DNA of 64,000 nt, taken from positions 124,001 to 188,000 of the forward strand of contig JACFMQ010000003.1 of assembly GCA_019455325.1 (NCBI GenBank). Direction: 5' to 3'. Position 1 is the first letter of the stretch. The number at the start of each line of letters is the position of its first letter. The translations under genes and the position numbers were made by a program. Shown in pieces: positions 9,429-39,778 of the stretch. This DNA is from Rhodocyclaceae bacterium (lineage in GTDB: Bacteria > Pseudomonadota > Gammaproteobacteria > Burkholderiales > Rhodocyclaceae). Under the pieces are notes generated by a model. It saw only the letters and a list, made by a program, of their open reading frames with translations. It made no database searches and had not been told where the DNA came from.

Positions 9429-10430
9429 ATGCCCCGCACTCAGGCGCTGCGGGAGTGGTTCGAAAGACAGCTCCCCGGCCAGCCGTTCACGCTCGCGCCG
9501 GCCTCGGCCGACGCCAGTTTCCGCCGCTATTTCCGCGCCACGCTCGGCGACGGGACGACGCGCATCGTCATGGACGCGCCGCCCGAGCACGAGGACTGCC
9601 GCCCCTACCTGCACGTGGCGAAGCTGTTCGCCGGCGCCGGCGTGCACGTGCCGGCGGTCCATGCCGAGGATCTGGAACAGGGCTTCCTGCTCCTCTCCGA
9701 CCTCGGCAACACCACTTACCTGACGGCGCTGGACGCGCACCCGGAAGGCGCGTCCGCGCTCTACCGCGAGGCCAACGCCGCGCTGGTGAAGATCCAGCTC
9801 GCCAGCCGCCCCGGCGCGCTGCCGGACTACGACCGCGCGCTGCTCCTGCGCGAGCTGCAACTGTTTCCCGACTGGTACGTGGCGAAGCACCTCGGCGTCG
9901 CCCTCGACGAGAAGCAGCGGGCCGTCCTCGCCGGCGTCTTCGACAAGGTGCTGGCGAACAACCTGGCGCAGCCGCGCGTTTTCGTGCACCGCGACTACCA
10001 CTCGCGCAACCTGATGGTCAGCGCGCCCAATCCCGGCGTGCTCGACTTCCAGGACGCGGTCTACGGCCCGATCGCCTACGACCTCGTCTCACTCTACCGC
10101 GACGCCTACGTCGCCTGGGAGGAAGAGCAGGAGCTCGACTGGACGATCCGCTACTGGGAGGCGGCGCGCCAGGCGCGGCTGCCGGTGCACGCCGACTTCT
10201 ACGACTTCTGGCGCGACTACGAATGGATGGGCGTGCAGCGCCAGTTGAAGGTGCTCGGCATCTTCGCCCGGCTCAATCACCGCGACGGCAAGGCGCAGTA
10301 CCTCGCCGACATGCCGCGCGTGATGGCCTACCTGCGCCGCGCCTGCGCCCGCTACGGCGAACTGAAGCCGCTCCTGCTGCTGCTCGACGAACTGGAGAAC
10401 CGGCAGGTGCAGGCCGGCTACACCTTCTGA
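9429..10430 (+). CDS. amgK: N-acetylmuramate/N-acetylglucosamine anomeric kinase
   Basis: AmgK phosphorylates the anomeric carbon of recycled N-acetylmuramic acid and N-acetylglucosamine. The 333-residue protein is an aminoglycoside-phosphotransferase-fold kinase. It has an N-terminal SADASFRRYFRATLG nucleotide-binding region, the catalytic VFVHRDYHSRNLMV loop (Brenner motif) and the metal-binding GVLDFQDAVYGPIAYDL. The start at 9429 has an AAGGAG site 6 nt upstream; the frame is open further 5' but without a site. It is followed 2 nt later by murU, which uses its product. The pair divergent from lptD is the same arrangement as in pseudomonads. Confidence 0.9.
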   Translation: MPRTQALREWFERQLPGQPFTLAPASADASFRRYFRATLGDGTTRIVMDAPPEHEDCRPYLHVAKLFAGAGVHVPAVHAEDLEQGFLLLSDLGNTTYLTALDAHPEGASALYREANAALVKIQLASRPGALPDYDRALLLRELQLFPDWYVAKHLGVALDEKQRAVLAGVFDKVLANNLAQPRVFVHRDYHSRNLMVSAPNPGVLDFQDAVYGPIAYDLVSLYRDAYVAWEEEQELDWTIRYWEAARQARLPVHADFYDFWRDYEWMGVQRQLKVLGIFARLNHRDGKAQYLADMPRVMAYLRRACARYGELKPLLLLLDELENRQVQAGYTF

Positions 10431-10432
10431 CG

Positions 10433-11125
10433 ATGAAGGCGATGATCCTCGCCGCCGGCCGCGGCGAACGCATGCGGCCGCTGACCGACGCGACGCCGAA
10501 GCCGCTGCTCGTCGCCGGCGGCCGGCCGCTGATCGTCTGGCACATCGAGCGGCTGGCCGCCGCCGGCTTCCGCGAACTGGTGGTCAACCGCGCGCACCTC
10601 GGCGAGCAGCTCGAGGCGGCGCTCGGCGACGGCGGCCGCTGGGGCGTGCATATCGACTGGTCGCCGGAGCCGCCGGGTGCGCTGGAGACCGCCGGCGGCA
10701 TCGCGCAGGCGCTGCCGCTGCTGGGCGACGCGCCCTTCCTCGTGGTCAACGGCGACATCTGGTGCGACTGGGACTTCCGCCGCGCGCGCGACGTCACGCT
10801 GCCGCCGCCGCGACTCGCGCACCTGGTGATGATCGCCAACCCCGCGCACCACGCCGGCGGCGACTTCGCCCTCGACGAGACGCGCACGCCGGCGCAACTG
10901 ACGCTCGCCGACGGCGGTCCAACGCTCACGTACTGCGGCATCGGCGTCTTCCATCCGGACTTCTTCGCCGGTGTTGCGCGCGGCGCGGCGATGAAGCTGC
11001 GGCCGCTGCTCGACGCGGCGATCCCGTGCGGCCTCGTCGGCGGCGAGCGGCACGCGGGCCGCTGGATCGACGTTGGCACCCCGGAACGGCTGGCTGAACT
11101 GGATAGGTATCTGCGTGCTTCGTGA
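10433..11125 (+). CDS. murU: N-acetylmuramate alpha-1-phosphate uridylyltransferase
   Basis: MurU converts MurNAc-alpha-1-phosphate plus UTP to UDP-MurNAc, the second step of the peptidoglycan-recycling shortcut that bypasses fosfomycin-sensitive MurA. The 230-residue protein has the nucleotidyltransferase signature at the N-terminus (MILAAGRGERMRPLTDATPKPLL), an NGDIWCD metal-binding segment, YCGIGVFHPDFF and the C-terminal WIDVGTPERLAEL. The start is 2 nt after the amgK stop, so the two are co-transcribed and probably coupled. Confidence 0.9.
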   Translation: MKAMILAAGRGERMRPLTDATPKPLLVAGGRPLIVWHIERLAAAGFRELVVNRAHLGEQLEAALGDGGRWGVHIDWSPEPPGALETAGGIAQALPLLGDAPFLVVNGDIWCDWDFRRARDVTLPPPRLAHLVMIANPAHHAGGDFALDETRTPAQLTLADGGPTLTYCGIGVFHPDFFAGVARGAAMKLRPLLDAAIPCGLVGGERHAGRWIDVGTPERLAELDRYLRAS

Positions 11126-11178
11126 CCGAATAAACTCCAATGGCATACACTTCGATGTTTTGCCGAAGGAATCCCGCC

Positions 11179-12027
11179 ATGCGTAAGTCATCCGTTTCCC
11201 GCCAGCACCACGCGACATTCGAGGCGCTTCGCCAATGTGATGCCGCCGGCAATGAATTTTGGTCGGCGCGCGATCTGGCGCCGCTGCTGGAATATCAGGA
11301 TTGGCGCAATTTCATGCAGGTGGCGGACAAGGCGCGCCAGGCTTGCGAGCAGTCTGGCCAAGCCGTCGCCGACCATTTCGGTGAAGCCACCAAAATGGTT
11401 TCGATCGGCTCCAATGCGCAGCGCAAGGTTCCCGATATCCATCTGTCGCGCTATGCCTGTTATTTGATCGTCCAGAATGGCGACCCGTCGAAGCCGGTCA
11501 TCGCCAACGGACAAACCTACTTTGCCATCCAGACCCGGCGGCAGGAACTGGCCGACGACGCGGCTTTCGGACAACTCAGCGAGGACGAAAAGCGGCTGGC
11601 CATCCGTAACGAACTGGCGCGGCACAACAAGCATCTCGCCGCCGCAGCCGCCGATGCCGGGGTGGAAAGCGGCCTGGACTTCGCCATTTTCCAGGACCAC
11701 GGTTATCGTGGTCTGTACGGGGGCTTGAGCGCCAAAGCGATTCACGCGCAAAAGGGCCTAAAGAAAAACCAGAAAATCCTCGACCACATGGGCAGCACCG
11801 AACTGGCGGCCAACCTGTTTCGCGCCACGCAAACCGAGGAAAAACTGCGGCGCGATGCTGTCAAAGGCAAACAGGAGGCAAATCAGACCCATTTTGCCGT
11901 CGGCCGCAAAGTGCGCGAAACCATCCACGACCTCGGCGGCACCATGCCCGAAAACCTGCCGACACCGGAGCAAAGCATCCGGCAGATCGAGTCCGCCCAA
12001 GGCAGATTGCCCAAGAAGGATGACTGA
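11179..12027 (+). CDS. dinD: DNA-damage-inducible protein D (DinD-like)
   Basis: A 282-residue DinD homologue. The N-terminal BRO-type domain (EFWSARDLAPLLEYQDWRNF) is followed by the family hallmarks HLSRYACYLIVQNGDPSKPVI, YFAIQTRRQEL and GYRGLYGG, and by AKAIHAQKGL. E. coli DinD is SOS-induced and reported to affect RecA filaments. The start at 11179 has an AAGGA site; an upstream ATG at 11140 lacks one. Base composition is clearly less GC-rich than its neighbours (more A/T at third positions), suggesting later acquisition. No clear LexA box was seen upstream. Its stop abuts the pepP start. Confidence 0.85.
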   Translation: MRKSSVSRQHHATFEALRQCDAAGNEFWSARDLAPLLEYQDWRNFMQVADKARQACEQSGQAVADHFGEATKMVSIGSNAQRKVPDIHLSRYACYLIVQNGDPSKPVIANGQTYFAIQTRRQELADDAAFGQLSEDEKRLAIRNELARHNKHLAAAAADAGVESGLDFAIFQDHGYRGLYGGLSAKAIHAQKGLKKNQKILDHMGSTELAANLFRATQTEEKLRRDAVKGKQEANQTHFAVGRKVRETIHDLGGTMPENLPTPEQSIRQIESAQGRLPKKDD

Positions 12028-13362
12028 ATGAGCCTCGCCCCGAATTCGACCTGCTTCCTCGCCCGCCGCAAGCGCCTGCTGAAAGCCATCGGCGACGGCG
12101 TCGCCGTCGTGCCGACCGCGCCCGAGCGCGTGCGCAACCGCGACTCGCACCACCCCTACCGCTTCGACAGCTACTTCTGGTATCTCACCGGCTTCCCGGA
12201 GCCGGAGGCGGTGGTCGTGATCCTCGGCGGCGACAGCCCGCAGAGCATCCTCTTCTGCCGCGAGAAAAACGAGGAGCGCGAAATCTGGGACGGCTACCGC
12301 CACGGCCCGGAAGGCGCACGCGAAGCCTTCGGCTTCGACGCCGCCTACCCGATTGGCGAACTCGACCAGCGCCTGCCCGAACTGATCGCCGACCGCGCCG
12401 CACTGTGGCACTCGCTCGGCCACGACGCCGAGTGGGACGCGCGCATCGCCGCCGCGTTGAACGCCGTACGCGCGCAGGCGCGCGCCGGAAAACGCACGCC
12501 GCGCGAGATCCGCGACCTGCGCGCGGCGCTCGACGCGATGCGCCTCGTCAAGGACGACGGCGAACTCGACACCATGCGCCGCGCCGCCGCCATCAGCGCC
12601 GCCGGCCACGCGCGCGCGATGCGCCACTGCCGGCCGGGCATGGCCGAATACGAGCTGGAAGCCGAACTAACGCACGAATTCCGCCGGCGCGGCGCCGCCG
12701 GCCACGCCTACACGCCGATCGTCGCCGGCGGCGCCAACGCCTGCGTGCTGCATTACGTCGAAAACGACCGCCTGCTGCCCGACGGCGGGCTGGTGCTGAT
12801 CGACGCCGGCTGCGAACTGGACGGCTACGCCGCCGACATCACGCGCACGTTCCCGATAAACGGCCGCTTCTCGCCGGCACAGAAGGACGCCTACGAGATC
12901 GTGCTCGCCGCGCAGGCCGCGGCCATCGCCGCGATCCGCCCCGGCGCGCCGTTCATGGCCTACCACGACGCCGCGGTGCGCGTGCTGGCGCAGGGCATGA
13001 TCGACCTTGGGCTGCTCGCCGGCAGCGTCGACGGCGTCGTCGAGAGCGAGGCCTACAAACGTTTCTACATGCACCGCACCGGCCACTGGCTCGGCCTCGA
13101 CGTGCACGACGCCGGCGACTACAAGGAGCAGCGCGAGGGCGGCGAATGGATCCGGCTGGCGCCGGGCATGACGCTGACCGTCGAGCCCGGCCTCTACGTG
13201 CGGCCGGCCGCCGACGTGCCTGCGGCGCTGCACGGCATCGGCATCCGCATCGAGGACGACGTCGTCGTCACCGCCGACGGCGGCGAGGTCTACACCGACG
13301 CGCCGAAGACCGTCGCCGAGATCGAAGAGGTGATGCGCGAGGAAACCCTGCGCCATGACTGA
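12028..13362 (+). CDS. pepP: Xaa-Pro aminopeptidase (aminopeptidase P)
   Basis: This enzyme removes N-terminal residues that precede proline. The 444-residue protein has the aminopeptidase P N-terminal domain (residues about 5-140, FDSYFWYLTGFPEPEAVVVIL) and a pita-bread metallopeptidase domain. Its dinuclear metal ligands are visible in LIDAGCELDGYAADITRTF (two Asp), HRTGHWLGLDVHD (His), TVEPGLY (Glu) and GIRIEDDVVVT (Glu). The ATG follows the dinD stop without a gap. The end overlaps the ubiH-like gene by 8 nt; pepP-ubiH is also the order in E. coli. Confidence 0.94.
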   Translation: MSLAPNSTCFLARRKRLLKAIGDGVAVVPTAPERVRNRDSHHPYRFDSYFWYLTGFPEPEAVVVILGGDSPQSILFCREKNEEREIWDGYRHGPEGAREAFGFDAAYPIGELDQRLPELIADRAALWHSLGHDAEWDARIAAALNAVRAQARAGKRTPREIRDLRAALDAMRLVKDDGELDTMRRAAAISAAGHARAMRHCRPGMAEYELEAELTHEFRRRGAAGHAYTPIVAGGANACVLHYVENDRLLPDGGLVLIDAGCELDGYAADITRTFPINGRFSPAQKDAYEIVLAAQAAAIAAIRPGAPFMAYHDAAVRVLAQGMIDLGLLAGSVDGVVESEAYKRFYMHRTGHWLGLDVHDAGDYKEQREGGEWIRLAPGMTLTVEPGLYVRPAADVPAALHGIGIRIEDDVVVTADGGEVYTDAPKTVAEIEEVMREETLRHD

Positions 13363-28809: not shown

Positions 28810-29889
28810 ATGGCGCACACCATCCACAGCAAACCGATCGCCGAACGCATCGACTGGCTGTTCGGCCGCGCCCGCGACTACTCGGCGCAGTTCGCCAGCC
28901 CGGAGAACTGGCTGGCGCGCGAGCGCTATCTCGCCCGCCACCCGACCGCCATCGCCGTCCTCAAGTGCATGGACGGCCGCATCAACATCCCGGTGGCGAC
29001 GCAGACGCCGCTCGGCATCATCCAGCCCTTCCGCAACCTCGGCGGCATCTTCGACCTCGGCTGGCCGCACCTCGGCGAGGTGCTCGCCGGCTACGTGCAG
29101 CGCTGCGTGCGCGAGGGCCGGCGCGTGCTGTTCGTCGTCACCTACCATTTCTCGCGCGGCGACGCGCGCCGCGGCTGCGCCGGCTTCGGCCACGACACCG
29201 AGGCGGCGAAGGCGCACACCCTGCGCATCAAGGCGCAGATCGAATCGGTCTTCGGCCGCGCGCACAGCACCGTCTATCCGCTCGTCTGCGGCTTCGAGAC
29301 CGACGAGGACGCACTGCTGGTGCACGGCGACGGCGGCGACACGCTCGACCTCGCCGCGCTCGCCCCGGCAGACGCGGATTCGCTGCCGCGCCGGCTCGGC
29401 GCCTTGCTGCCGGACATGCCCGAGCGCATCCGCGACGACCTGCTGCCGCTGCTCGCCGGCAACCTGCGGCACATCGACGAAGTGCGGCGCACGCAGCGCG
29501 AAGCGGAGATCGAGCACCGCGAATGGATGATCTGCATCGGCCGCGGCTTCGACTTCCTGCACATGCCCAACCTGGCGCTGATCGTCGGCCCCTACAGCCC
29601 GGAGCTGGCCGAGCCGGTGGCGCGCGCGGCCGGCATCATCGAGGCCAACATGCGCGCCGGGCGCATCCCGGACGACGGCTTCCTGCTGCTCGCTTCGGTG
29701 CCCTACGAGGAAATCGGCATGGACCGCGCCCGCGCCGAGCTGAAATCGCGCTTTCTCGCCGACTTCTCGGCCGGCGTCATCGCCGCCGGCCAGCCGGCGC
29801 TGGCGCGGAAGATGCACGTGCGCACGGCGGTGCTCGACTGGCGCTCGCGGCGCCTGGAGCAGATCGGCGCCGATAGCGCGGCTCAGTAG
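28810..29889 (+). CDS. Orphan CsoSCA-like carbonic anhydrase
   Basis: A 359-residue soluble protein resembling the catalytic region of the carboxysome shell carbonic anhydrase CsoS3/CsoSCA. The zinc-site residues appear in order: Cys53-x-Asp55-x-Arg57 in VLKCMDGRINIPV, His113 in FVVTYHFSRGDAR and Cys123 in RRGCAGFGHDTEAA. The 10-residue spacing between His and second Cys matches CsoSCA, not classical beta enzymes (H-x2-C). Family context such as YPLVCGFETDEDALLVHG follows. It lacks the long carboxysomal N-terminal domain, and no Rubisco or shell genes are nearby. It lies 0.6 kb from the convergent end of the DAB cluster, suggesting bicarbonate/CO2 interconversion as a shared theme. Confidence 0.7.
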   Translation: MAHTIHSKPIAERIDWLFGRARDYSAQFASPENWLARERYLARHPTAIAVLKCMDGRINIPVATQTPLGIIQPFRNLGGIFDLGWPHLGEVLAGYVQRCVREGRRVLFVVTYHFSRGDARRGCAGFGHDTEAAKAHTLRIKAQIESVFGRAHSTVYPLVCGFETDEDALLVHGDGGDTLDLAALAPADADSLPRRLGALLPDMPERIRDDLLPLLAGNLRHIDEVRRTQREAEIEHREWMICIGRGFDFLHMPNLALIVGPYSPELAEPVARAAGIIEANMRAGRIPDDGFLLLASVPYEEIGMDRARAELKSRFLADFSAGVIAAGQPALARKMHVRTAVLDWRSRRLEQIGADSAAQ

Positions 29890-30484: not shown

Positions 30485-31948
30485 TCAGGACAGGCGCGCC
30501 GCCCAGGCCTCCGCCGCCGGCCGGATGGTTTCCAGCAGACCGGCCGGCCACAGTCCGAAACCGACGATCAGCGCGGCGAAGACCAGCGCCGCCGCCAGCT
30601 CCCGTTGCGTCAGGTCGTCCGCCTCGGCCGCCGGCCCGGCGCGCAGCGGCCCGAAAAAGGCGGCGCGATAGGGCGCGAGAAACGCCGCGGCGCCGACCAC
30701 CATGCCGAACAGCGCGGCCAGCGCCGCGCCCGCGTGCTCCGGCAGCGCCGCGACGATGATCAGGAACTCGGCGGGAAAGCCGATGGTCCCCGGCAGACCG
30801 ATGCCGGCCAGCCCGAACAGCAGGAAGCAGCCGGCCAGCCGCGGCAGCCGCTGGCGCAGCCCGGAAAGCGCCGCCAGGTCGCAGGTGCCGAGCCGCCGCT
30901 GCAGCCCCCCGAGCAAAAGGAAGCCGCCGCCCGTCGCCAGCGTCAGCGTCAGCATCAGAAGCACCGCGCCCTGCGCGCCGGCGACCGAGAACGAGGCCAG
31001 CCCGAGCACCGCCAGCCCGGCGTGCGAGACGCCGCCGTAGGCCAGCACGCCGCGCAGGTTGCTCTGTGCCAGCGCCGCCACCGCGCCGTAGAGGATGGCC
31101 ACCGTGCCCAGCCCGGCGAGCAGCCAGTGCAGATCGCGCACGGCCAGCGGCGAGAGCGGCAGCGCCAGCCGCAGCAGGCCGTAGGCGCCGAGCTTGAGGC
31201 CGACGAGCAGCGCCGTCACCGTCGCCGGCGCGCCGAGGGCCAGCGACGGCAGCCAGGTGTGCAGCGGCACGAACGGCACCTTGACGCCGAAGCCGACGAG
31301 AAAGAGCAGCAGTGCCGCCAGTTGCACGCCGTAGGGCAGCGCCGCCGGGTCGGCGGCGAGCAGCGCCGGCAGGTCGAAGCCGCCGCCGTGGGCGCCGACC
31401 AGGAGCAGCGCGAAAAGCAACGGCACGCCGCCGGCGAGCATGATCAGGAAATAGCGCACCGCCGCCGCGCGGCCGGCCGCATCCAGCCCCCACAGTCCGA
31501 TCAGGAAGTAAAGCGGGAGCAGCGTCAGCTCCCAGAAGACGAAGAAGAGCAGCGTGTCGAGCGCGCAGAAGACGCCCAGCGTCGCCCCTTCCAGCGCCAG
31601 CAGCAGCCCGTAGTACAGCCCCGGCGCCGGCCGCGGCGCGCGCGCGCCGGCGAGCATGGCAGCGGCGAAGAGCAGCGCCGTCGCCGGCAGGAAGAAGAGC
31701 GACAGCCCGTCCACGCCGACGTGGTAATGCACGCCGATGCCGGGAACCCACAGGCGTTTCTCGACCAGTTGAAAATCGCCGCGCGCCGGATCGAACAGCG
31801 CCACGGCGGCAAGCGCGGCGAGCAGCGTCGCGGCGGCGACGGCAAGCGCCAGGCCGCGCGCGCCGTCCTTGCGGGCGAGCAGCAGGCAGCCGGCGGCGCC
31901 GGCGAAGGGCAGCGCCAGCAGCAGGCCGAGGATCGGGAAGTCGGCCAT
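30485..31948 (-). CDS. NuoM-like proton-translocating subunit of the DAB cluster (third M-type copy)
   Basis: A 487-residue polytopic membrane protein of the Proton_antipo_M family with about 14 helices. The functional residues of NuoM are kept: Glu in LFFVFWELTLLPLYFLIG, Lys in GFGVKVPFVPLHTWLPSLALGAP, and Lys in LLVGLKLGAYGLLR. It is the last gene of the leftward cluster, 1 nt after the previous gene. No other complex I subunits (NuoA-K, N) are nearby, so it is unlikely to belong to respiratory complex I. Linkage to DabA suggests proton-coupled inorganic carbon uptake. Confidence 0.85.
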   Translation of the reverse strand: MADFPILGLLLALPFAGAAGCLLLARKDGARGLALAVAAATLLAALAAVALFDPARGDFQLVEKRLWVPGIGVHYHVGVDGLSLFFLPATALLFAAAMLAGARAPRPAPGLYYGLLLALEGATLGVFCALDTLLFFVFWELTLLPLYFLIGLWGLDAAGRAAAVRYFLIMLAGGVPLLFALLLVGAHGGGFDLPALLAADPAALPYGVQLAALLLFLVGFGVKVPFVPLHTWLPSLALGAPATVTALLVGLKLGAYGLLRLALPLSPLAVRDLHWLLAGLGTVAILYGAVAALAQSNLRGVLAYGGVSHAGLAVLGLASFSVAGAQGAVLLMLTLTLATGGGFLLLGGLQRRLGTCDLAALSGLRQRLPRLAGCFLLFGLAGIGLPGTIGFPAEFLIIVAALPEHAGAALAALFGMVVGAAAFLAPYRAAFFGPLRAGPAAEADDLTQRELAAALVFAALIVGFGLWPAGLLETIRPAAEAWAARLS

Positions 31949-31949
31949 C

Positions 31950-33461
31950 CTAGCCGCCCCCGAAGCGCGCGGCGGCCGCCCGCGTCGCCGCCTCGGTCAG
32001 GTGCAGCCAGGGCTCGGGCAGGAAGCCGGCGGCCAGCAGCACGAACAGCGTCAGGCCGCCGAGCAGATACTCCATCGGCCGCACGCGTTCCACCGCCGTG
32101 CGTTCGCCGCCCTCCGGCGCCGGCGCCAGGAAGGCGCGCTGGAAGGCCCAGAGCAGGAAGCCGGCGGCGGCCACGTTGCCGAGCGCGGCGGCCACCGTCG
32201 GCAAGGCGCCGAAGGTGCCGATGGCCGCCTCCAGCACCAGGTGCGCGGCGTCGAAGCCGGGCGTGCCGGGCATGCCGACGATGGAGAAGCCGCCGATCAG
32301 GAAGGCGATGGCGATGAACGGGATGCGCTCGAACAGCCCGCCCAGCTCGGCGAGCTCGGCGGTGCGCGTGCGCCGGAAGACGAAGGCGACCATCAGCAGC
32401 AGCACGGTCGCCGCGAAGCCGAAGTTCACCGCCAGCAGCAGCGCCCCCTGCACGCCGAGCGGATGCAGCGTGAACAGGCCGATGACGATCAGGCTGGTGT
32501 GGCTGACCACGGCGAAGGCGAGCAGCCGGCGCAGATTGGTCTGCAAGAGCGCCAGCGCCGCCGTGAAGAAGACGCCGGTGCCGGCGAAGGCGACGACGTA
32601 GGGCTGCCAGTCGAGCACCGCGTCCGGCGTCAGCGGCAGCACGTAGCGCACCATGCCGTAGATGCCGACCTTGATGCCGAGGAGCAGCGTCGGCGCAACG
32701 GCGATGCTGCCGTGCTGCGCCATGTCCGGCAGCCAGCCGTGCAGCGGGAAGAGCGGCGTGCGCACGGCCAGCCCGTAGAAGAGCAGGAAGAAGGCGGCCG
32801 CCTGGAACTTGCCGAGCGGCGGCGTCAGCGCCAGGTCGAAGAGGTCGAAGCTCCACAGGCCGCCGGTGGCGTCGGCGTGCCCCCAGGCGAGCACGAGCAC
32901 GCCGCCGGCGAAGAGCAGCCAGCCGAAGCCCTGATACTGCAGGAAGCGCGAGAAGGCGAGGTCGCCGGCGTCGCCGGCCGCCCAGACGCGCAGCAGGTAG
33001 GCGACGAGCGCCAGCTCGAAGGCCGAGGCGACGGCGAACCAGAGCAGGTTCACGGTGACCAGCATGCTCATCAGCGCCGCCTGCGCCAGCAGCACGACGA
33101 CGAGCAGCGAGGCGTGGCGCATCTTCTCGCGCACCAGCTCGTAGAGCGACAGCAGGAGGCCGATCAGCGCCGTCACCAGCACGAAGAACACGGTCACGCC
33201 GTCGGCGCCGGTGTGGTAGAGCAGCCAGTCGGCGCGCTCGGCGAACTGCAAGGCCGGCGACGCGGCGTCGAGGCCGCGGTAGAGGGCGATGGCGAGCGCC
33301 AGTTCGGCGAGGAAGAAGCAGCGCGCCAGCGCCACCGCCCACGGCCGCCGGCGCAGCGCCTGCAGCAGCAAGGCGCCGCACAGCGGCAGCGCCTGCAAAA
33401 GCGCCAGCAGCGGCAGGGCGGCGTGCCGGCTCCAGTGCAGTTCTTCGAGCAGGATAGACAT
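31950..33461 (-). CDS. NuoM-like proton-translocating subunit of the DAB cluster (second M-type copy)
   Basis: A 503-residue Proton_antipo_M protein. A conserved Glu lies in FAVASAFELALVAYLL. The first lysine position is replaced by Arg (YGLAVRTPLFPLHGWLPDMAQHG), while the second is kept (LLLGIKVGIYGMVR). This substitution separates it from its two NuoM-like neighbours and from canonical NuoM. Its ATG overlaps the stop of the NuoL-like gene upstream. It is probably a membrane partner in the same complex. Confidence 0.85.
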   Translation of the reverse strand: MSILLEELHWSRHAALPLLALLQALPLCGALLLQALRRRPWAVALARCFFLAELALAIALYRGLDAASPALQFAERADWLLYHTGADGVTVFFVLVTALIGLLLSLYELVREKMRHASLLVVVLLAQAALMSMLVTVNLLWFAVASAFELALVAYLLRVWAAGDAGDLAFSRFLQYQGFGWLLFAGGVLVLAWGHADATGGLWSFDLFDLALTPPLGKFQAAAFFLLFYGLAVRTPLFPLHGWLPDMAQHGSIAVAPTLLLGIKVGIYGMVRYVLPLTPDAVLDWQPYVVAFAGTGVFFTAALALLQTNLRRLLAFAVVSHTSLIVIGLFTLHPLGVQGALLLAVNFGFAATVLLLMVAFVFRRTRTAELAELGGLFERIPFIAIAFLIGGFSIVGMPGTPGFDAAHLVLEAAIGTFGALPTVAAALGNVAAAGFLLWAFQRAFLAPAPEGGERTAVERVRPMEYLLGGLTLFVLLAAGFLPEPWLHLTEAATRAAAARFGGG

Positions 33462-34969
33462 CACAGGATCACCACGAAGGTCGCCATGACCATCAGCATC
33501 AGGTAGCGCGGCTGTTCGAGCAGCGCCTCCAGCGCCTTCAGCGCCTCGCCGGCGCGCCGCAGCAGATGCAGCGCACCGCCGCCGCCTCCTTGCAGCACCA
33601 GGCGCGTCTCGAAACGCTGCATGGCTTCGGCCAGGCGGGCCAGCGCGCGGCCGGCGAGACCGGCGTCGACCGGGCCGTCGCCGTCGCCGGGCGCGCCGAC
33701 GAGGCGCTCGATGACGCGCTCGTCGAGCGCGCGCACGTCGCGCCCGAGCGACAGCGTCGGCCGCAGCAGCAGCACGCGCGCCAGCGATTCCAGCCAGAAG
33801 CGTTGCAGCGCCGCGGTGTAGAGCAGCGCGCGGCCGGCGAGCCAGGCCGGCGGCGGCGCCGGCCGCGGCGCCAGTTGCAGGTACGAGGGCGAGAGCAGGA
33901 ACTGGTAGCCGCGCCACAGCGCATGCAGCGCCAGATGCCAGGCGGCGAGCGTGGTCCAGCCGAGGCCGCAGGCGAGCACCATCAGCCCGGCCTGGGTGAC
34001 CGTGGCGAAGGCCAGCGCCGTCTTCACGTCGCTCGCCGTGCGCCCGCACAGCCAGCCGTAGAGCGCGCTCGCCGCGCCGGCCAGCGCCACGGCCGCGGCC
34101 ATGTCCGGCACCTGCTGCACGAGCGGGTCGATGCGGATCAGCAGGAAGACGCCGGCGTGCACCATCAGCGAACCGTAGAACACCGCCGACGACGGCGTCG
34201 GCCCCTCCAGCGCGCGGCCGATCCACGGCGTGAACGGCAGTTGCGCCGATTTCGCCAGCGCGGCGACGACGAGGCCGAGCGCCAGCATGCGCGCCTTCAC
34301 CGTCTCCGACACGCTGCCGCCGGCCAGCTCCGGCCACTCGACCGAACCGAGCCACCAGTAGGCCAGCCCGATGGCGAGCAGGAAGCCGGCGTCGCCGATG
34401 CGGTTGGCGAGGAAGGCGAAGAGCGCGTTGCCGGTCGCCTGCGGCCGCTCGTCGGCGAAGCCGATGAGCAGCCAGGAGGCGAAGCCGCACAGCTCCCAGC
34501 CGACGAAGGCGAGCACCGCGTTGCCGGCGAGCACGATGAGCAGCATGCCGCCGAGGAACAGGTTCATGCCGACGAAGAAGCGGTGGAAGCCGGGCTCGCG
34601 GTGCAGATAATTGACCGAGAAGCCGATCGTCGCCCAGCCGACGAAGGCGACCAGCAGGCCGACGCCGAGCGCCGGCGTATCGAGCATGAAGGAGAACGGC
34701 ACGGCGACGTCGGGCGCGGCGAACCATTCGCCGAGCGCGACCTGGCCGGGCGCGCCGGCGGCTGCGGCGCCGACGCCGAGCACGAACAGCAGGAGCAGCG
34801 CGCCGAGCGCCGCGCCGCGCGAGACGGCGGCGGTGGCCGGCTCGGCGGCGTCGCCGGCCGCGCCGCGCAACGCCCGCACGGCGACGAACAGCGCCGCCGC
34901 CAGCGGCAGCGCCGGCGCCAGCCAGACGAGCGGCACCCAGGCGGCGAGCATTTCCGGCAGCGCGCTCAT
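33461..34969 (-). CDS. dabB: NuoL/ND5-like subunit, probable DabB
   Basis: A 502-residue membrane protein related to NuoL. It has the ND5-type start (LVWLAPALPLAAALFVAV), the NYLHREPGFHRFFVGMNLF segment, and FVGWELCGFASWLLIGF with the coupling Glu. The DabB-like run ALAKSAQLPFTPWIGRALEGPTPSSAVFYGSLMVHAGVFLLIR follows. It lies 49 nt downstream of dabA. In described DAB systems a single DabB of this family forms the membrane half and energises DabA with the proton gradient. This is the best DabB candidate of the four antiporter-like genes here. Confidence 0.8.
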   Translation of the reverse strand: MSALPEMLAAWVPLVWLAPALPLAAALFVAVRALRGAAGDAAEPATAAVSRGAALGALLLLFVLGVGAAAAGAPGQVALGEWFAAPDVAVPFSFMLDTPALGVGLLVAFVGWATIGFSVNYLHREPGFHRFFVGMNLFLGGMLLIVLAGNAVLAFVGWELCGFASWLLIGFADERPQATGNALFAFLANRIGDAGFLLAIGLAYWWLGSVEWPELAGGSVSETVKARMLALGLVVAALAKSAQLPFTPWIGRALEGPTPSSAVFYGSLMVHAGVFLLIRIDPLVQQVPDMAAAVALAGAASALYGWLCGRTASDVKTALAFATVTQAGLMVLACGLGWTTLAAWHLALHALWRGYQFLLSPSYLQLAPRPAPPPAWLAGRALLYTAALQRFWLESLARVLLLRPTLSLGRDVRALDERVIERLVGAPGDGDGPVDAGLAGRALARLAEAMQRFETRLVLQGGGGGALHLLRRAGEALKALEALLEQPRYLMLMVMATFVVIL

Positions 34970-35018
34970 CGTTCGCTCCGATCGTTGGCGGCGCCGCGCG
35001 GCGCCCGGCCGGCGGCGT

Positions 35019-38000
35019 TCATGCCGTCGGCTCCAGCAGCGCCGGCGGCAGCGGCTCGCGGTGGTCGGCGAGCCAGGCCGCCGACGAGGCGGCGCGCGGC
35101 ACCGGCGTACCGTCGTCGCGCCACGGCAGCCAGCCGCGCGCCGGGTCGAACGAGAAGATCTCGCCGCTCGCCGGCTCCTGCACCGCGACGTTGATCCAGC
35201 CGTTGCCGATCAGTTCGCGCAGCGGCGGCTGCCGCTCGTAGATGGCGGCGACGACCGCGCGCGTCTGCTCGACGACGACCAGGAGACGCATCGGCTCGTG
35301 GATCTCGATCATCTGCCGCGGCAGCCCGGTGCGCAGATCGGAGGCCGTGCCCTCCATGACGCCGACGAGGCCGGCGAGGTTGTGCGTGATCTTGCTGCCG
35401 CAGCCGAAGCGCCGGTTGTCCACGGTCGAGAAGTAGTATTCGAGCGCGATGCCGGCGCCGACCGGGCCGGCGGCGAGCAGGATGGCTTCGAGCACGGCGC
35501 CGTCGGCGTCGTCCGTCGGATCGTAGGAGATGAGGAAGACGCGGCGGTCGAAGAAAGCGCCGCGGCTCATCGCGCGGCGGCCGATGAAGGCGGCGGCGAC
35601 CGTCGCGTGGCCGAGCTCCGGCCGCGCCTGCGACCAGTCGTGGCGGCGGCCGGCGAGATGCGCGAGGGCGCGCGCCGCGCCGGGCGAGCGCGGCGCCGAG
35701 GCGAAGCGGCGGCAGCGTTCGACCGCGTGCCGGGCGAGCGCCTCGGCGAGGTCACGGCCGAGCGCGGCGAAGCGCTCGCCATGGCTCTCGGGCAGCGCGT
35801 CGAGGTCGAACCAGGTCATCGACTCGTCGCCGGTGTTGTGCTCGGCGCCGAGGAAGCGGCAGTCGTCGGGAATGGGGATGCCGCGTGCGGCCAGCCCGGC
35901 GCGCACCTCCGGCCGGTTGGCCATGGCCGCGAAGGCGCGCGCGCTCGGCCCGCCGTGGCGGCCGGAACAGGCGCCACAGTCGTAGGCTGCGAGGTGCGGG
36001 TTGTTGGCGCTGTTCGAACCGTGGCCGACGATGACGACGAGCGGAGCGAAGTCCTTGGTCAAGCCGATGCTGACCAGGAAGCCGGCGACGCGCGCGACCT
36101 GCTCGGCGTCGGTGAAGCCGGCGCGCGGCGCGCCTGCGTCGGCGGCCTCCGCCGTCAGCGCCAGCCGCGTCGGCACCGCGCCGTCGAAGCCCTCGCGCCA
36201 GCGGCGCAGCCATTCGCCGAGCGTCGCCGGCGCCAGCGCCTGCACGGCCAGCGCGCCGAGCGCCAGCGGCGCGGCCAGAGCGGTCAAGAGCGGCGCCGCG
36301 ACGAGGCCGTCGCGCGTCGCGCCGTGCAGCCGCTGGCGCCACGCCAGGCGCTGCGCGCGGCGGCGCGCGTGCCGGTCGGCGGTGTCGCCGGCGCCCTCGG
36401 CCGGCAGCTCGCGCACTTCGTTCGCCGGCGTCACCACCACCGGACAGAGCGCCGTCGGCGCCGTATCGTCGAGCCCGCGCCAGTACATCGGCACGCCGAA
36501 GAAGCCGGCGGCGCCGAAGGTGTGCAGCGCCGGATTGACCTCCTCCAGGTGCCGGCGCGTGCCCTCCTCGCGGTCGTCCATGCAGAACACCAGTTGCGCC
36601 TCGGCGCGGCCGGCGCCGGCGGCCGCGCGGCCGTGATTGGCGGCGAGCGCGGCGAAGATCCGCTGCCGGTGGCGTTCCTCGTAGGCGAGCAGCCAGACGT
36701 GGCCGCGCCGGTCGGCGTCGAGCGTCGCCGCGGCGAGCAGCGCCTCGGCGCCGGAGCGGCCGGCGGCGGCGAGCGCCGCGGCATCGAGCCCGAGGCGCTG
36801 CGCCAGCACGAACAGCGGCCAGCGCCGGTCGGGCGCATCGCCGGCCGGCGGCGCCGCGCTGGCGTGCTCGGCCAGCCGCTCCCAGTCCTGCGGCGCCGCG
36901 CCCTCGCCGTCGATCAGGCGCTGCGCGGCCTGCGCGTCGGCCTCGTTCAGCCGGCCGGCGAAGCGCGCGTGGCGCACCCACAGCTCGGCCGGATGCGTCA
37001 GGAAATGGTCGCCCAGCTCGGAGAGGAACAGCGGCAGGCCCCAGGTGCGGCGCACCAGGTCCTCACAGCACAGGCGTTCGAGCACCAGGCGCACGGCCAG
37101 ATAATCGACCATCGCCACCGGCGCCGGCTCGTCCGCGCCGCCGTGCCGGTCGCGCCACAGGAACATGCCGGACCAGCCGGGCAGGTCGAGCGCCAGCCGT
37201 TCGAGGTAGCCACCCCAGTTCGCCTCGTTCGGGCCGAGGTGGATCAGCTCGCGGGCGATGGCGTCCACCGGGTCGTCGGGCAGTACCGCGATCTCATCGC
37301 GCGCAGCAACCAGTTCGTCCAGCTCCCAGCCCCAGTCGACGCCGGCGCTGGCACGCCAGGCGGCGTAGAAGCCGGCGGCGCGCGCCGGGTTGCGCCAGCC
37401 GGCGACGCCGAGGTCGAGATGCGCGCCGAGGTGGCGGATGAGCAGCGGCCGCACCGCTTCCTGCACGTCCTCGCCGGTCAGCCGGGCGAGCAGCGCGGCC
37501 AGCGTCCACTCGCCGCCGACGCGGCCGACGAGTTCGCTCCACAGGCCGCGCGCCGCCTGCCGCCACTCGGCCGGCGCCGGCGTCGGCGGGAAGACGTCGG
37601 CGAAGCGGGCGTCACCGGCCGGCGACGGCGCGGCAGCGCCGAGCAGCGCATCGGCCGCCGCCCACAGTGCGCGCAGCGCCGCCGTCTCGTCGCCGGCCGC
37701 GCGCAGCCGTGCGTCCGCCGCCAGCGACAGGTTCGGGCGCCGGCAAAGCAGTGTGCCCTCCTCGCTCAGCCAGGCGATGCGCGCCGCCGACGGCGGCGCC
37801 AGATCGTCGAGGAAGGCTTCGCGCAGCGCCGCCCGCCGCGTCAGCGCCGGCCAGCCCGGCACGGGCTCGTCGAGGCCGGGCAGGCCGGCGGCGACGAAGG
37901 CGGCGTCGAGGTCGACCGGCAGGATGCGGCCGGCGGCCAGCCATTCGCGGCACTGCACCTCCTCCGCCCACGGCCGGGCGCCGGTGAGGCGCGCCGCCTT

Positions 38001-38153
38001 CGCCAACGCCTCGGGGAACGGCAGGTGCTGCAAACCGTGCAGCGTGTTGTGGTGCACGAAGTCGCGGATCGGCGCCTGCGCCGGCAGCACGTGTTCGAGG
38101 TGCGCGATCCACCCGGCGAGGCGCTCGCGCAGCGCGTGTCCGCTGCCGCTCAT
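35019..38153 (-). CDS. dabA: DabA (DUF2309), inorganic-carbon uptake subunit, long form
   Basis: A 1044-residue DUF2309 protein. DabA is the cytoplasmic zinc protein of the DAB energy-coupled inorganic-carbon accumulation system and is thought to act as a vectorial, beta-carbonic-anhydrase-like CO2 hydrase. The site is complete: Cys524 and Asp526 in QLVFCMDDREEGTRRHLEEV, His711 in VVIVGHGSNSANNP, and Cys726 in AAYDCGACSGRHGG. The His-to-Cys spacing of 15 equals that of the Halothiobacillus protein. The N-terminus has the family PIRDFVHHNTLHGLQHLPF. It is about 200 residues longer than the best-known DabA. Its neighbours are four NuoL/M-like subunits. Confidence 0.9.
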   Translation of the reverse strand: MSGSGHALRERLAGWIAHLEHVLPAQAPIRDFVHHNTLHGLQHLPFPEALAKAARLTGARPWAEEVQCREWLAAGRILPVDLDAAFVAAGLPGLDEPVPGWPALTRRAALREAFLDDLAPPSAARIAWLSEEGTLLCRRPNLSLAADARLRAAGDETAALRALWAAADALLGAAAPSPAGDARFADVFPPTPAPAEWRQAARGLWSELVGRVGGEWTLAALLARLTGEDVQEAVRPLLIRHLGAHLDLGVAGWRNPARAAGFYAAWRASAGVDWGWELDELVAARDEIAVLPDDPVDAIARELIHLGPNEANWGGYLERLALDLPGWSGMFLWRDRHGGADEPAPVAMVDYLAVRLVLERLCCEDLVRRTWGLPLFLSELGDHFLTHPAELWVRHARFAGRLNEADAQAAQRLIDGEGAAPQDWERLAEHASAAPPAGDAPDRRWPLFVLAQRLGLDAAALAAAGRSGAEALLAAATLDADRRGHVWLLAYEERHRQRIFAALAANHGRAAAGAGRAEAQLVFCMDDREEGTRRHLEEVNPALHTFGAAGFFGVPMYWRGLDDTAPTALCPVVVTPANEVRELPAEGAGDTADRHARRRAQRLAWRQRLHGATRDGLVAAPLLTALAAPLALGALAVQALAPATLGEWLRRWREGFDGAVPTRLALTAEAADAGAPRAGFTDAEQVARVAGFLVSIGLTKDFAPLVVIVGHGSNSANNPHLAAYDCGACSGRHGGPSARAFAAMANRPEVRAGLAARGIPIPDDCRFLGAEHNTGDESMTWFDLDALPESHGERFAALGRDLAEALARHAVERCRRFASAPRSPGAARALAHLAGRRHDWSQARPELGHATVAAAFIGRRAMSRGAFFDRRVFLISYDPTDDADGAVLEAILLAAGPVGAGIALEYYFSTVDNRRFGCGSKITHNLAGLVGVMEGTASDLRTGLPRQMIEIHEPMRLLVVVEQTRAVVAAIYERQPPLRELIGNGWINVAVQEPASGEIFSFDPARGWLPWRDDGTPVPRAASSAAWLADHREPLPPALLEPTA

Positions 38154-38195
38154 GGCGCGTCTCCCGGCAAGGGCGTGTGCGGAATGCGCGCCATC

Positions 38196-39647
38196 TCAGC
38201 CCCCGAACAGGCGAGCGATCTCGCGCAGCGAGGCCGCCGAGACGGCGAGCAGCGGCGCCGGCCAGAGGCCGGCGACGAGGATGCCGGCGACGAGCGTGCC
38301 GGCGGCCAGCCATTCGGCGGCGCCGAGGTCGGCCACCGCCGCGGCGTGCGGCCGGCCGCCGAGGCACAGGCGGCCGACGACGCGCAGCGCATAGGCGGCG
38401 CTGATCAGCACGGCCAGCGAGAGCAGCGCCACCCAGCCCTGCCAGCGGCCGAAGGCGCCGATCAGCACGTGCAGCTCGGCGACGAAGCCGGCGCCGGCCG
38501 GCAGCCCGGCGGCGGCGAGAAAGGCGAAGGCGAGCAGCGCGGCGAGCCGCGGCGCCTGCGCCGGCAGCGCCCCGATCTCGTCGAGCCGACGCGTGTGCGT
38601 GCGCTGGTAGAGCGCGCCGACGAGCAGGAAGAGCAGCGCCGCGGCGAGCCCGTGCGCGGTCATCTGGTAGACGGCGCCGGCCAGCCCGGTGACGTTGAGC
38701 GCGGCGATGCCGAGCAGGACGACGCCCATGTGCGCCACCGACGAGTAGGCGACGAGCTGCTTCAAATCGCTCTGCCGCCAGGCGAGCACGCTGCCGTAGA
38801 CCAGCGAGACGAGCGCCAGCGCGGCGAGCGCGTCCTGCAGCGCGAGCACCGCCGCCGGCAGCGTCTCGGCGGCGCGGATCAGGCCGTAGCCGCCCATCTT
38901 CAGCAGCACGCCGGAGAGCAGGATGGAGATCGGGCTCGGCGCCTCGACGTGCGCCAGCGGCAGCCAGCCGTGCAGCGGGAAAACCGGCATCTTGACGCCG
39001 AAGCCGATGAACAGGCCGGCGAAGATCAGGAGCTGCGTCGCCGTCGGCAGGCCGCGCCCGCCCTCGGCCATGTCGGCCATGGCGAAGCTGTGGCCGGGCG
39101 CTGCGTCGTAGAGCAGCAGCAGCGCGACGAGCATGAACACCGAGCCGCCGAGCGTGTAGAGCACGAAGTTGAGCGCCGCGCGGTGGCGCTGCGCGCCGCC
39201 CATGCGGTCGATCAGGAAGAACAGCGGGATCAGCGTCAGTTCCCAGAAGACGTAGAACAGCGACCAGTCGCGCGCGAGGAAGACGCCGAGCATCGCCGAT
39301 TCGAGCACGAGCAGCAGCGAGAAGTAGAGGCGCGCGCCCTTGCGGATGCCGCCCGAGGCAAGGACGGCGACGACGCAGAGCAGCGTGGCCAGCAGCAGCA
39401 TGGGCAGCGAGACGCCGTCGACGCCGAGGGCGAAGCTGGAGCCGACGCGCGGGTTCCACGGTCGCGTCTCGAAATACTGCTGGGTGGCGAGGCCGCTGTC
39501 GAAGCCGGCGGCGAGGAGCACGGCGACCGCCAGCGCGGCGGCGGAGACCGCCAGTGCGGTCCCCCGGATCAGCGCCGGCCGGCGCGCCGGCAGCACGGCG
39601 ATCAGGAGGGCGCCGGCAAGCGGCAGCAATAGCAGGGTTTTCAGCAC
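38196..39647 (-). CDS. NuoM-like proton-translocating subunit of the DAB cluster (first gene)
   Basis: A 483-residue Proton_antipo_M protein and the first gene of the leftward cluster, 42 nt before dabA. Of the three M-type copies it is closest to canonical NuoM. It has FYVFWELTLIPLFFLIDRMGG with the coupling Glu, GFGVKMPVFPLHGWLPLAHVEAPSPISILLSGVLLKMGGYGLIR with both lysines, and AYSSVAHMGVVLLG. An N-terminal DPVS-type segment (GVDGVSLPMLLLATLL) is present. It could be mistaken for nuoM, but dabA follows it and no other complex I genes do. Confidence 0.85.
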   Translation of the reverse strand: MLKTLLLLPLAGALLIAVLPARRPALIRGTALAVSAAALAVAVLLAAGFDSGLATQQYFETRPWNPRVGSSFALGVDGVSLPMLLLATLLCVVAVLASGGIRKGARLYFSLLLVLESAMLGVFLARDWSLFYVFWELTLIPLFFLIDRMGGAQRHRAALNFVLYTLGGSVFMLVALLLLYDAAPGHSFAMADMAEGGRGLPTATQLLIFAGLFIGFGVKMPVFPLHGWLPLAHVEAPSPISILLSGVLLKMGGYGLIRAAETLPAAVLALQDALAALALVSLVYGSVLAWRQSDLKQLVAYSSVAHMGVVLLGIAALNVTGLAGAVYQMTAHGLAAALLFLLVGALYQRTHTRRLDEIGALPAQAPRLAALLAFAFLAAAGLPAGAGFVAELHVLIGAFGRWQGWVALLSLAVLISAAYALRVVGRLCLGGRPHAAAVADLGAAEWLAAGTLVAGILVAGLWPAPLLAVSAASLREIARLFGG

Positions 39648-39778
39648 CGGCGCGATCCGACCTCTCGCATGCCGTGTCTCCTCCTGACGATTTATCCTTG
39701 TTGTGTCCGGCGATTATGCCAGCACCGGGGAGTCAGGCGAAGGGCATGCGGCGATTTCTGCGCGCCGCGCGCGCCGGC

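Follow-up and report, generated by a model that had tools for sequence, protein, structure and literature searches.

We focus here on an operon of the DAB type, a type associated with inorganic-carbon uptake, which lies in a window of 64,000 nucleotides from a Rhodocyclaceae bacterium (assembly GCA_019455325.1, contig JACFMQ010000003.1, positions 124,001 to 188,000 of the forward strand; the window is this whole stretch of DNA). The operon consists of five tightly spaced minus-strand genes across positions 30485-39647, with intergenic gaps of 42, 49, -1 and 1 nt and no internal stop codon in any of them, an arrangement already recognised in a first-pass annotation made from the sequence alone. 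These genes encode one DabA protein and four antiporter-like membrane proteins, termed M1, L, Mx and M3, which may work together as a CO2-hydrating pump. The residues of DabA will be related to those of DabA2 from the Halothiobacillus neapolitanus DAB2 system (DabA2-DabB2; PDB 9rd0; PMC13144422), a structure that is reached by a sequence search with the DabA of the window. The features are the following, from the first gene of the operon to the last:

38196-39647, minus strand: M1, NuoM-like antiporter subunit, GTG start, 483 aa, PF00361
35019-38153, minus strand: DabA, long His849 class, 1044 aa, PF10070
36219-36320, minus strand: DabA codons 612-645, a hydrophobic stretch where DabA2 has its finger hairpin
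35607-35609, minus strand: codon of DabA His849, aligned with DabA2 Leu658
33461-34969, minus strand: L, NuoL-like subunit, 502 aa, PF00361
31950-33461, minus strand: Mx, divergent NuoM-like subunit, 503 aa, PF00361
30485-31948, minus strand: M3, NuoM-like subunit, 487 aa, sister clade of Mx, PF00361

DabA matches the Pfam family PF10070 over the whole model (7.1e-242, model 1-747 of 747), and M1, L, Mx and M3 each match PF00361 (Mx was scanned within the longer open frame 31950-34727), so that DabA has L plus three more membrane partners of this family beside it. The top NCBIfam model is NuoM (TIGR01972) for M1, M3 and Mx, the last of which barely passes (264.1 bits for a cut-off of 263.8 bits), and the top models for L are those of NuoL, with scores under their cut-offs. 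This agrees with the initial description of one NuoL-like and three NuoM-like proteins, Mx being weakly NuoM. No redox, Q-module or other complex I subunit gene was recognised in the operon or its scanned neighbours, as had also been described, and an antiporter trio that pairs with the L and M queries as NuoL, NuoM and NuoN would is found on contig C23 of the source genome. This genome (4.46 Mb in 31 contigs) contains one PF10070 match, and its Mrp and MrpD-like clusters are on contigs C1 and C2, away from the operon. On C2, three further MrpD-like antiporter genes (L051) are distinct from the Mrp cluster (L050) and from the NuoL/M/N-like trio (L052).

The conservation of the order M1-DabA-L-Mx-M3, which we score as full, was followed in four sets of loci that share some genomes, so that their counts are not additive. 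Orthologues were kept at more than 45% identity, and neighbours in the 80 named-genome loci were counted at more than 33% identity. In the family sample, PF10070 is present in 33/199 genomes, 12 with a short DabA and an adjacent DabB-like gene and 21 with a long DabA (a split made by match length, plus the neighbours where loci were fetched); the full order is found in 15 of 20 long-DabA loci, and contig ends truncate the other 5. When named genomes were scanned with Mx, 269 relatives came out, and the best 80 were kept. Among these 80, the order is full in 63, full with overlapping and possibly fused or broken frames in 3 (L092, L107, L126), and cut by contig ends in 13; many of the hosts are Accumulibacter, Dechloromonas, Azonexus and other Rhodocyclaceae, and a few are gammaproteobacterial, including Thiodiazotropha and a Bathyaustriella symbiont. 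The closest named match, from a Rhodocyclaceae metagenome-assembled genome (MAG; L106), has an Mx 91% identical to that of the window. In the phylum sample (PF10070 in 68/398 genomes), 14 of the 18 long-DabA loci fetched have the full order, the others being dabA alone (L169, L182), a cut locus (L181) and DabA-L with a divergent antiporter gene (L168). Finally, a class-level search (PF10070 in 83/369 genomes) provided 20 hand-picked loci, 12 of them with a DabA of the His849 type. The order is full in 7 of these 12, with M3 in two frames in L234, and the remaining ones hold M1-DabA (L231), DabA (L240) or DabA-L with one M3-like gene (L241), or reach contig ends (L236, L239). Across the four sets there are 31 misses, 21 of which are cut by contig ends. 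Judged by this recurrence of the gene order in other genomes, the five-gene set is a real, widespread unit.

Two loci from the named genomes are peculiar. A single open frame covers the places of L and Mx in L107 (7981-11025), possibly a natural fusion or a frameshift artefact. L131, a Thiotrichales MAG contig, carries Mx-M3 (9956-12867) by ApbE-family and sortase-system kinase genes, with no dabA within 9.9 kb upstream of Mx-M3, a search that covered this contig; it could be a rearranged or misassembled locus.

Mx is moreover inherited together with the long DabA. With an Mx profile at E <= 1e-90, 36/398 phylum genomes match, and all 36 are among the 37 that have a long DabA, the only one of the 37 without Mx being G513, whose long DabA is that of L168. 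At the same threshold, Mx was found in 0/31 genomes with short DabA only and in 0/330 without DabA. These scans scored at most 2 (PF10070) and 3 (Mx) candidates per genome, in genomes that are partly incomplete, and a DabA was called long when its match reached at least 2,690 nt or was split over two places (G220, G267, G287), a call by length for which a DAB1-like DabA would look identical; 18 of the 37 loci were fetched. The first-pass annotation had considered that the M-type genes might occur without dabA elsewhere. For Mx this is not what is seen in the 361/398 phylum genomes lacking a long DabA, in which Mx was not found, the contig of L131 being a possible exception.

The origin of the membrane subunits was examined in a tree of 174 antiporter-like proteins, with at most 22 rows per class, at least 230 aligned residues and few MrpA/MrpD rows (here and below, supports are FastTree local values and trees are midpoint-rooted). 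M1, Mx, M3 and L each form one clade (23/23 rows), with respective supports of 1.0, 1.0, 0.845 and 0.991. M3 and Mx are sisters (1.0), M1, M3, Mx and NuoM form one group (0.972), and L goes with DabB and NuoL (0.994), nearest to DabB weakly (0.249). The clustering of the M genes with respiratory NuoM, which had been raised as a possible objection, is thus partly seen, M1 being weakly sister to NuoM (0.744), yet M1, M3 and Mx are separate clades. The hybrid between Mrp antiporters and DAB that had also been suggested is rejected by this tree, in which M1, Mx and M3 stand apart from the few MrpA/MrpD rows. With its clades near NuoM and NuoL, the five-gene set draws, as far as this phylogeny places it, on the lines of NuoL and NuoM and not on that of Mrp, and it includes an internal duplication.

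The residues of these subunits are related to transmembrane (TM) helix numbers and to the E. coli NuoM numbering. M1 keeps TM5 Glu136, TM7 Lys219, TM8 Lys250 and TM12 Glu391, and M3 has all four key residues as well (Lys223 among them) and no TM11 His; each of the four is present in 23/23 rows for both proteins. In Mx, the TM7 Lys is replaced by Arg234, the substitution first noticed in the second M copy, and TM8 Lys264 is kept, each in 23/23 rows; Glu is found at TM5 or TM12 in 0/23 rows, which leaves one of the four channel residues. The earlier statement that the coupling residues are kept in most copies holds in full for M1 and M3, but not for Mx. The identity of Mx to that of the window is 62-91% over most of the 80 named-genome loci, and lower in L128 and in the gammaproteobacterial ones. 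Being well conserved yet deprived of key residues, Mx is more likely to serve as a linker than as a pump.

L keeps a Glu at TM5 (Glu159) in 23/23 rows, versus 0/17 DabB rows; 16/17 NuoL rows being cut at TM5, this column is silent on NuoL. At the place of DabB2 Lys347, L has Arg353, a position that is Arg in 23/23 L rows and Lys in 17/17 DabB and 17/17 NuoL rows. DabB2 has Ile in place of the TM5 Glu, a residue that the description of DAB2 ties to a closed-state ion pair, and restoring the Glu halved the growth yield (PMC13144422). The resemblance of L to NuoL extends through about TM11: its PDB sequence matches stop at about residue 365, and its predicted model (predicted local distance difference test, pLDDT, 76.9) matches the NuoL of complex I over some 350 residues, with a best E of 8.7e-19. 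The last 140 residues or so (about 365-502) are modelled with low confidence, and a likening of this tail to the NuoL lateral helix was dropped. After residue 365, the L of the window has no hydrophobic segment above the threshold used, 19/20 L rows longer than 490 aa have one, and four DabB rows have 3, 3, 4 and 1 in the same region.

DabA and L might nevertheless constitute a complete two-part DAB, with M1, Mx and M3 forming a separate cation/proton antiporter that is merely co-transcribed. Indeed, DabA and L occur without M1 and Mx in L168 and L241 (each with a further divergent antiporter-like gene), and in G355 and G359 dabA and the membrane genes are on different contigs. However, in the genomes searched Mx always came with a long DabA, and L has the Glu that the lone DabB lacks. 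In L231 (G908), M1 and dabA are kept together while Mx and M3 are elsewhere, on another contig; the split therefore does not always part DabA from the M genes. We consider this explanation unlikely.

In DabA, Cys524, Asp526, His711 and Cys726 align with Cys351, Asp353, His524 and Cys539 of DabA2, as expected from the complete zinc set that was called at first sight, and Arg528 aligns with Arg355, the partner of Asp in the Asp-Arg dyad. The zinc ligands Cys524, His711 and Cys726 and the Asp526-Arg528 dyad are all five invariant in 137/137 DabA rows. Rows identical over residues 100-600 (169 -> 136) and rows of at most 700 aa had been removed from this alignment, and the 96 rows of the His-type long class include the gene of the window twice (WIN and L001). 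Within this class, the finger Glu (DabA2 Glu444), reported to be essential in DAB2 (PMC13144422), is found in 0/96 rows, versus 40/40 short-class rows, L137 being grouped with the short class and L168, which is without the finger Glu, being counted apart. An acid within four columns of this position is likewise found in 0/96 class rows, one row being a gap there. In the DabA of the window, the finger-Glu column is Ala625 (multiple alignments) or Ala627 (phmmer alignment to DabA2), no acidic residue exists between Asp615 and Glu647, and the predicted model (pLDDT 80) has helices at 589-615 and 619-640, both at the finger place, and at 642-657. The second particularity of the class concerns the column of DabA2 Leu658, a residue reported as strictly conserved across 150 homologues (PMC13144422). 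It is His in 96/96 class rows and Leu in 40/41 others, the exception being L168 (His). Among 12 further His-type DabA, 10 are without an acid at the finger column and 2 have Asp there (L230, whose locus has all five genes, and L236, which a contig end cuts off after L).

The short class occupies one side of the DabA tree (0.972), and the DAB1-like DabA (1.0) share the other side with the His-type group. The pair formed by L168 and L241 (1.0) is a neighbour of the five-gene group, whose first internal branch is L230; L236 is placed with only 0.667 support. The loss of the finger acid accompanies the His in all but these two early branches, L230 and L236, which have the His but still an Asp, and this distribution suggests the His as the earlier change. 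In every case where the locus or genome was readable, a His849-type DabA was found with more than one antiporter gene. The length of DabA was rejected as a class marker because DAB1-like DabA are equally long. As separate observations, the early-branching DabA of L230 and L236 could reveal the order of the residue changes, and the three-gene relatives L168 (65-5716) and L241 may represent a stage between a single antiporter subunit and four.

These features of DabA bear on a second alternative, namely that the system performs bicarbonate uptake driven by a gradient of sodium or another cation, and not proton-driven CO2 hydration. MpsAB, a DAC homologue, has been proposed as a Na+/HCO3- symporter (PMC13144422), and the proton route of DAB2 involves a finger Glu that this DabA does not have. 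Against this, neither the zinc ligands nor the Asp-Arg dyad vary, M1 and M3 are NuoM-like and not MrpA/MrpD-like, and a His at the position of DabA2 Leu658 suits hydration chemistry. Cation-driven uptake thus appears quite unlikely.

The system can be compared with several known ones. Like DAB2, it has a PF10070 subunit that carries a Cys2His site together with an Asp-Arg dyad, a partner derived from NuoL and best matching it through TM11, and a hydrophobic stretch at the finger place. It differs from DAB2 by four antiporter subunits in place of one, by a His849 without finger Glu in place of Glu444 and Leu658, by a TM5 Glu in L that DabB lacks, by Arg353 for Lys347, and by the absence of a hydrophobic segment after residue 365 in the L of the window, DabB2 being described with 15 TM helices (PMC13144422). 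The DAB1-like order described in H. neapolitanus is NuoL, a TM protein, a DUF2309 protein (1046 aa) and PII (PMC4633670). The DAB1-like loci in our comparison, a label given by size and tree, have a DabA of similar length on the same side of the DabA tree and a NuoL-like gene nearby. In contrast to the DabA of the window, which has neither and lies outside their clade, 8/8 of these DabA have Leu at the place of His849 and the finger Glu, and M1, Mx and M3 were not found by BLAST in the fetched stretches. The premise of the first-pass annotation, that described DAB systems pair one DabA with one ND5-like protein, was incomplete, since DAB1 is reported to have a third small membrane protein (PMC13144422) and operons with extra NuoM genes were reported in 2017 (PMC5700660).

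In that 2017 work, COGNAT, dabA (as ybcC) was described upstream of nuoL in company with additional nuoM genes, and the translocation of several ions was put forward (PMC5700660). Its "clade C" ybcC operons, in which ybcC is upstream of nuoL, often with COG1008 (NuoM), very probably include the M1-DabA-L-Mx-M3 set, and multi-ion translocation was suggested for them; the passages on this clade deal with neighbourhoods only, sometimes with COG0659, give no CO2 function and propose outward pumping. The complex I membrane arm (NuoL, NuoM, NuoN) is echoed by the NuoL-like L and the NuoM-like M1, M3 and Mx, whose modules are expected to stand side by side, but the operon has three M-type copies, no NuoN-type copy and no recognised redox or Q-module gene, and DabA replaces the electron-transfer arm. 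Mrp/Mnh operons also contain several homologous antiporter-like subunits, from which the M proteins group apart in the tree, and the genome has its own Mrp clusters on other contigs. Cyanobacterial NDH-1MS is driven by ferredoxin oxidation and has Cup proteins in place of DabA. It is similar, by description only, in having a complex-I-like arm coupled to CO2 hydration (PMC13144422).

Our preferred reading, to which we give a probability of about 0.58, is that the five proteins make up a vectorial carbonic anhydrase of the DAC superfamily, driven by the proton motive force (PMF), which has a complex-I-like arm and is coupled otherwise than DAB2. It starts from what is observed, that is, the genes and their order, the co-inheritance, the residues and the separate clades; the CO2/bicarbonate chemistry and the PMF dependence would be those of the homologous DAB2, and we infer the assembly into one complex, the direction of proton flow, the use of more than one H+ per CO2 and the route of coupling. 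DabA, on the cytoplasmic side, would hydrate CO2 to bicarbonate at its Cys2His zinc site. It would be seated on L, NuoL-derived and NuoL-like only through about TM11, and its finger hairpin would probably pack where the later helices of NuoL would sit, as in DAB2. L would in turn extend into a row of NuoM-type modules, M1, Mx and M3, giving a complex I-like arm without the redox part. Protons moving inward via M1 and M3, and perhaps part-way via L, would power the catalytic cycle, and bicarbonate would accumulate, the reverse reaction being blocked. With the finger Glu absent, the published DAB2 mechanism cannot simply be copied; since no acid is left at the place of this coupling residue, coupling would probably go via the ion-pair switch of L, with its retained TM5 Glu, and the adjacent antiporter modules. 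This Glu, together with the full residue sets of M1 and M3, suggests a lateral mode of coupling resembling that of complex I. The multi-pump DAB complex first imagined for this operon is favored by a gene order kept across families and classes, the pairing of Mx with long DabA in 36 genomes and the M1 and M3 channels, but Mx is incomplete.

The opposite direction of working was suggested by the COGNAT authors, before DAB function was known (PMC5700660): the four membrane subunits would pump protons or sodium, powered by an exergonic reaction at DabA. The arm does resemble a multi-module pump, and L has the switching ion pair. However, the related DAB2 is described as a PMF-dependent CO2 hydratase (PMC13144422), and none of the genes in the operon was recognised as coding for a redox subunit or another source of energy, which makes such a reverse machine improbable. 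Least probable of all, DabA would be an ordinary membrane-anchored, reversible carbonic anhydrase, with the arm serving pH balance: active beta-carbonic anhydrases typically carry Gln or His at the Leu658 place (PMC13144422), as the class does in 96/96 rows while having no finger Glu, but DAB2 with Leu658 changed to Gln is reported to be still without activity in vitro (PMC13144422), the residue at this position therefore not deciding alone, and a free carbonic anhydrase would have no need of four conserved antiporter subunits.

Several observations weigh against a PMF-driven five-subunit carbonic anhydrase. The finger Glu essential in DAB2 is absent, and the loss of the acid is not strict for the five-gene set, as L230, and also L236, have Asp. 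Mx looks degenerate as a proton channel. Four genomes have split gene sets, with Mx elsewhere in the genome (G355, G359, G663, G908); in G355 and G359 the membrane genes are on another contig than dabA. In two relatives that have the His but lack a finger acid, L168 and L241, L is accompanied by a single divergent antiporter-like gene, and Mx is missing. A Foldseek search of the DabA model against the PDB was uninformative, with 0/193 matches at E <= 0.001 and no beta-carbonic anhydrase or DAB among the matches listed. RuBisCO is present in 14/21 long-DabA genomes and in 83/178 others of the family sample (p = 0.11). With no difference in RuBisCO presence, a link to autotrophy is unsupported and the role is therefore not specifically autotrophic. 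Among the open-licence papers listed by our searches, no experimental work on the His-type DabA class was found.

A bolder form of the preferred reading would make of this class a third mechanistic type of DAB, redox-free and complex-I-like, with at least two proton channels and lateral ion-pair signalling, in which the finger carboxylate is dispensable, the His is that of beta-carbonic anhydrases, more than one H+ is used per CO2, and Mx is a pseudo-pump that passes the signal. We hold this form as tentative, somewhat short of an even chance, and we are equally reserved about its evolutionary part, in which the finger residue was Asp, as in the two early-branching relatives, and was then lost.

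The operon is followed by a gene of related interest:

28810-29889, plus strand: CsoSCA2-type beta-carbonic anhydrase homologue, 359 aa, convergent with the operon

Its Cys-x-Asp-x-Arg motif, His and Cys are kept in the 11 rows compared, which include two same-genome pairs. A homologue is encoded close to the operon in L035, L044, L046, L058, L095, L106, L111, L123, L125, L134 and L238, with L044 and L095 from the same genome, as are L046 and L125; in several of these loci, L134 (Thiodiazotropha) and L238 among them, it is on the opposite strand. Genes of the csoSCA2 type outside carboxysome loci have been described, with Accumulibacter among the hosts (PMC9164163). In the family sample, with kinship uncorrected, a CsoSCA2 homologue is present in 12/21 genomes with long DabA versus 25/178 without. 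By these counts, the neighbour is associated with the operon and not tied to it; it was rejected as a part of the system and stands outside the proposed complex. A ProQ gene upstream of the operon was similarly rejected as a member, no homologue being found by BLAST in the relatives' loci compared, which are part of the full locus set. At the start of the operon (39640-39690, minus strand), an ATG preceded by an AGGAGGA motif starts a short frame of 9 codons, a possible leader peptide, which overlaps with the M1 start codon GTG. A 1673-aa open frame on the plus strand (34611-39632), antisense to M1, DabA and part of L, is presumably a by-product of high G+C.

The gene arrangement itself was already noted in 2017, together with the proposal that additional membrane genes correspond to additional ions (PMC5700660). 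Among the open-licence papers listed by our searches, we found no later study of the five-gene arrangement, and neither the loss of the finger Glu, nor His849, nor the features of Mx in print. What appears to be new is the residue signature, the pairing of Mx with long DabA and the way in which the system stands apart from the DAB1-like and DAB2-like classes; it is therefore not filed as a DAB1- or DAB2-type member. The 2026 model of DAB2 rests largely on one finger glutamate, and a natural class that has the zinc site, is mostly without this Glu and has several proton channels offers a direct test of it. It also provides a compact system, free of redox parts, for studying how the antiporter modules of complex I pass energy sideways. 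If the third-class reading were true, these bacteria would concentrate bicarbonate at more than one proton per CO2, and the operon may be a higher-ratio CO2 uptake pump for engineering.

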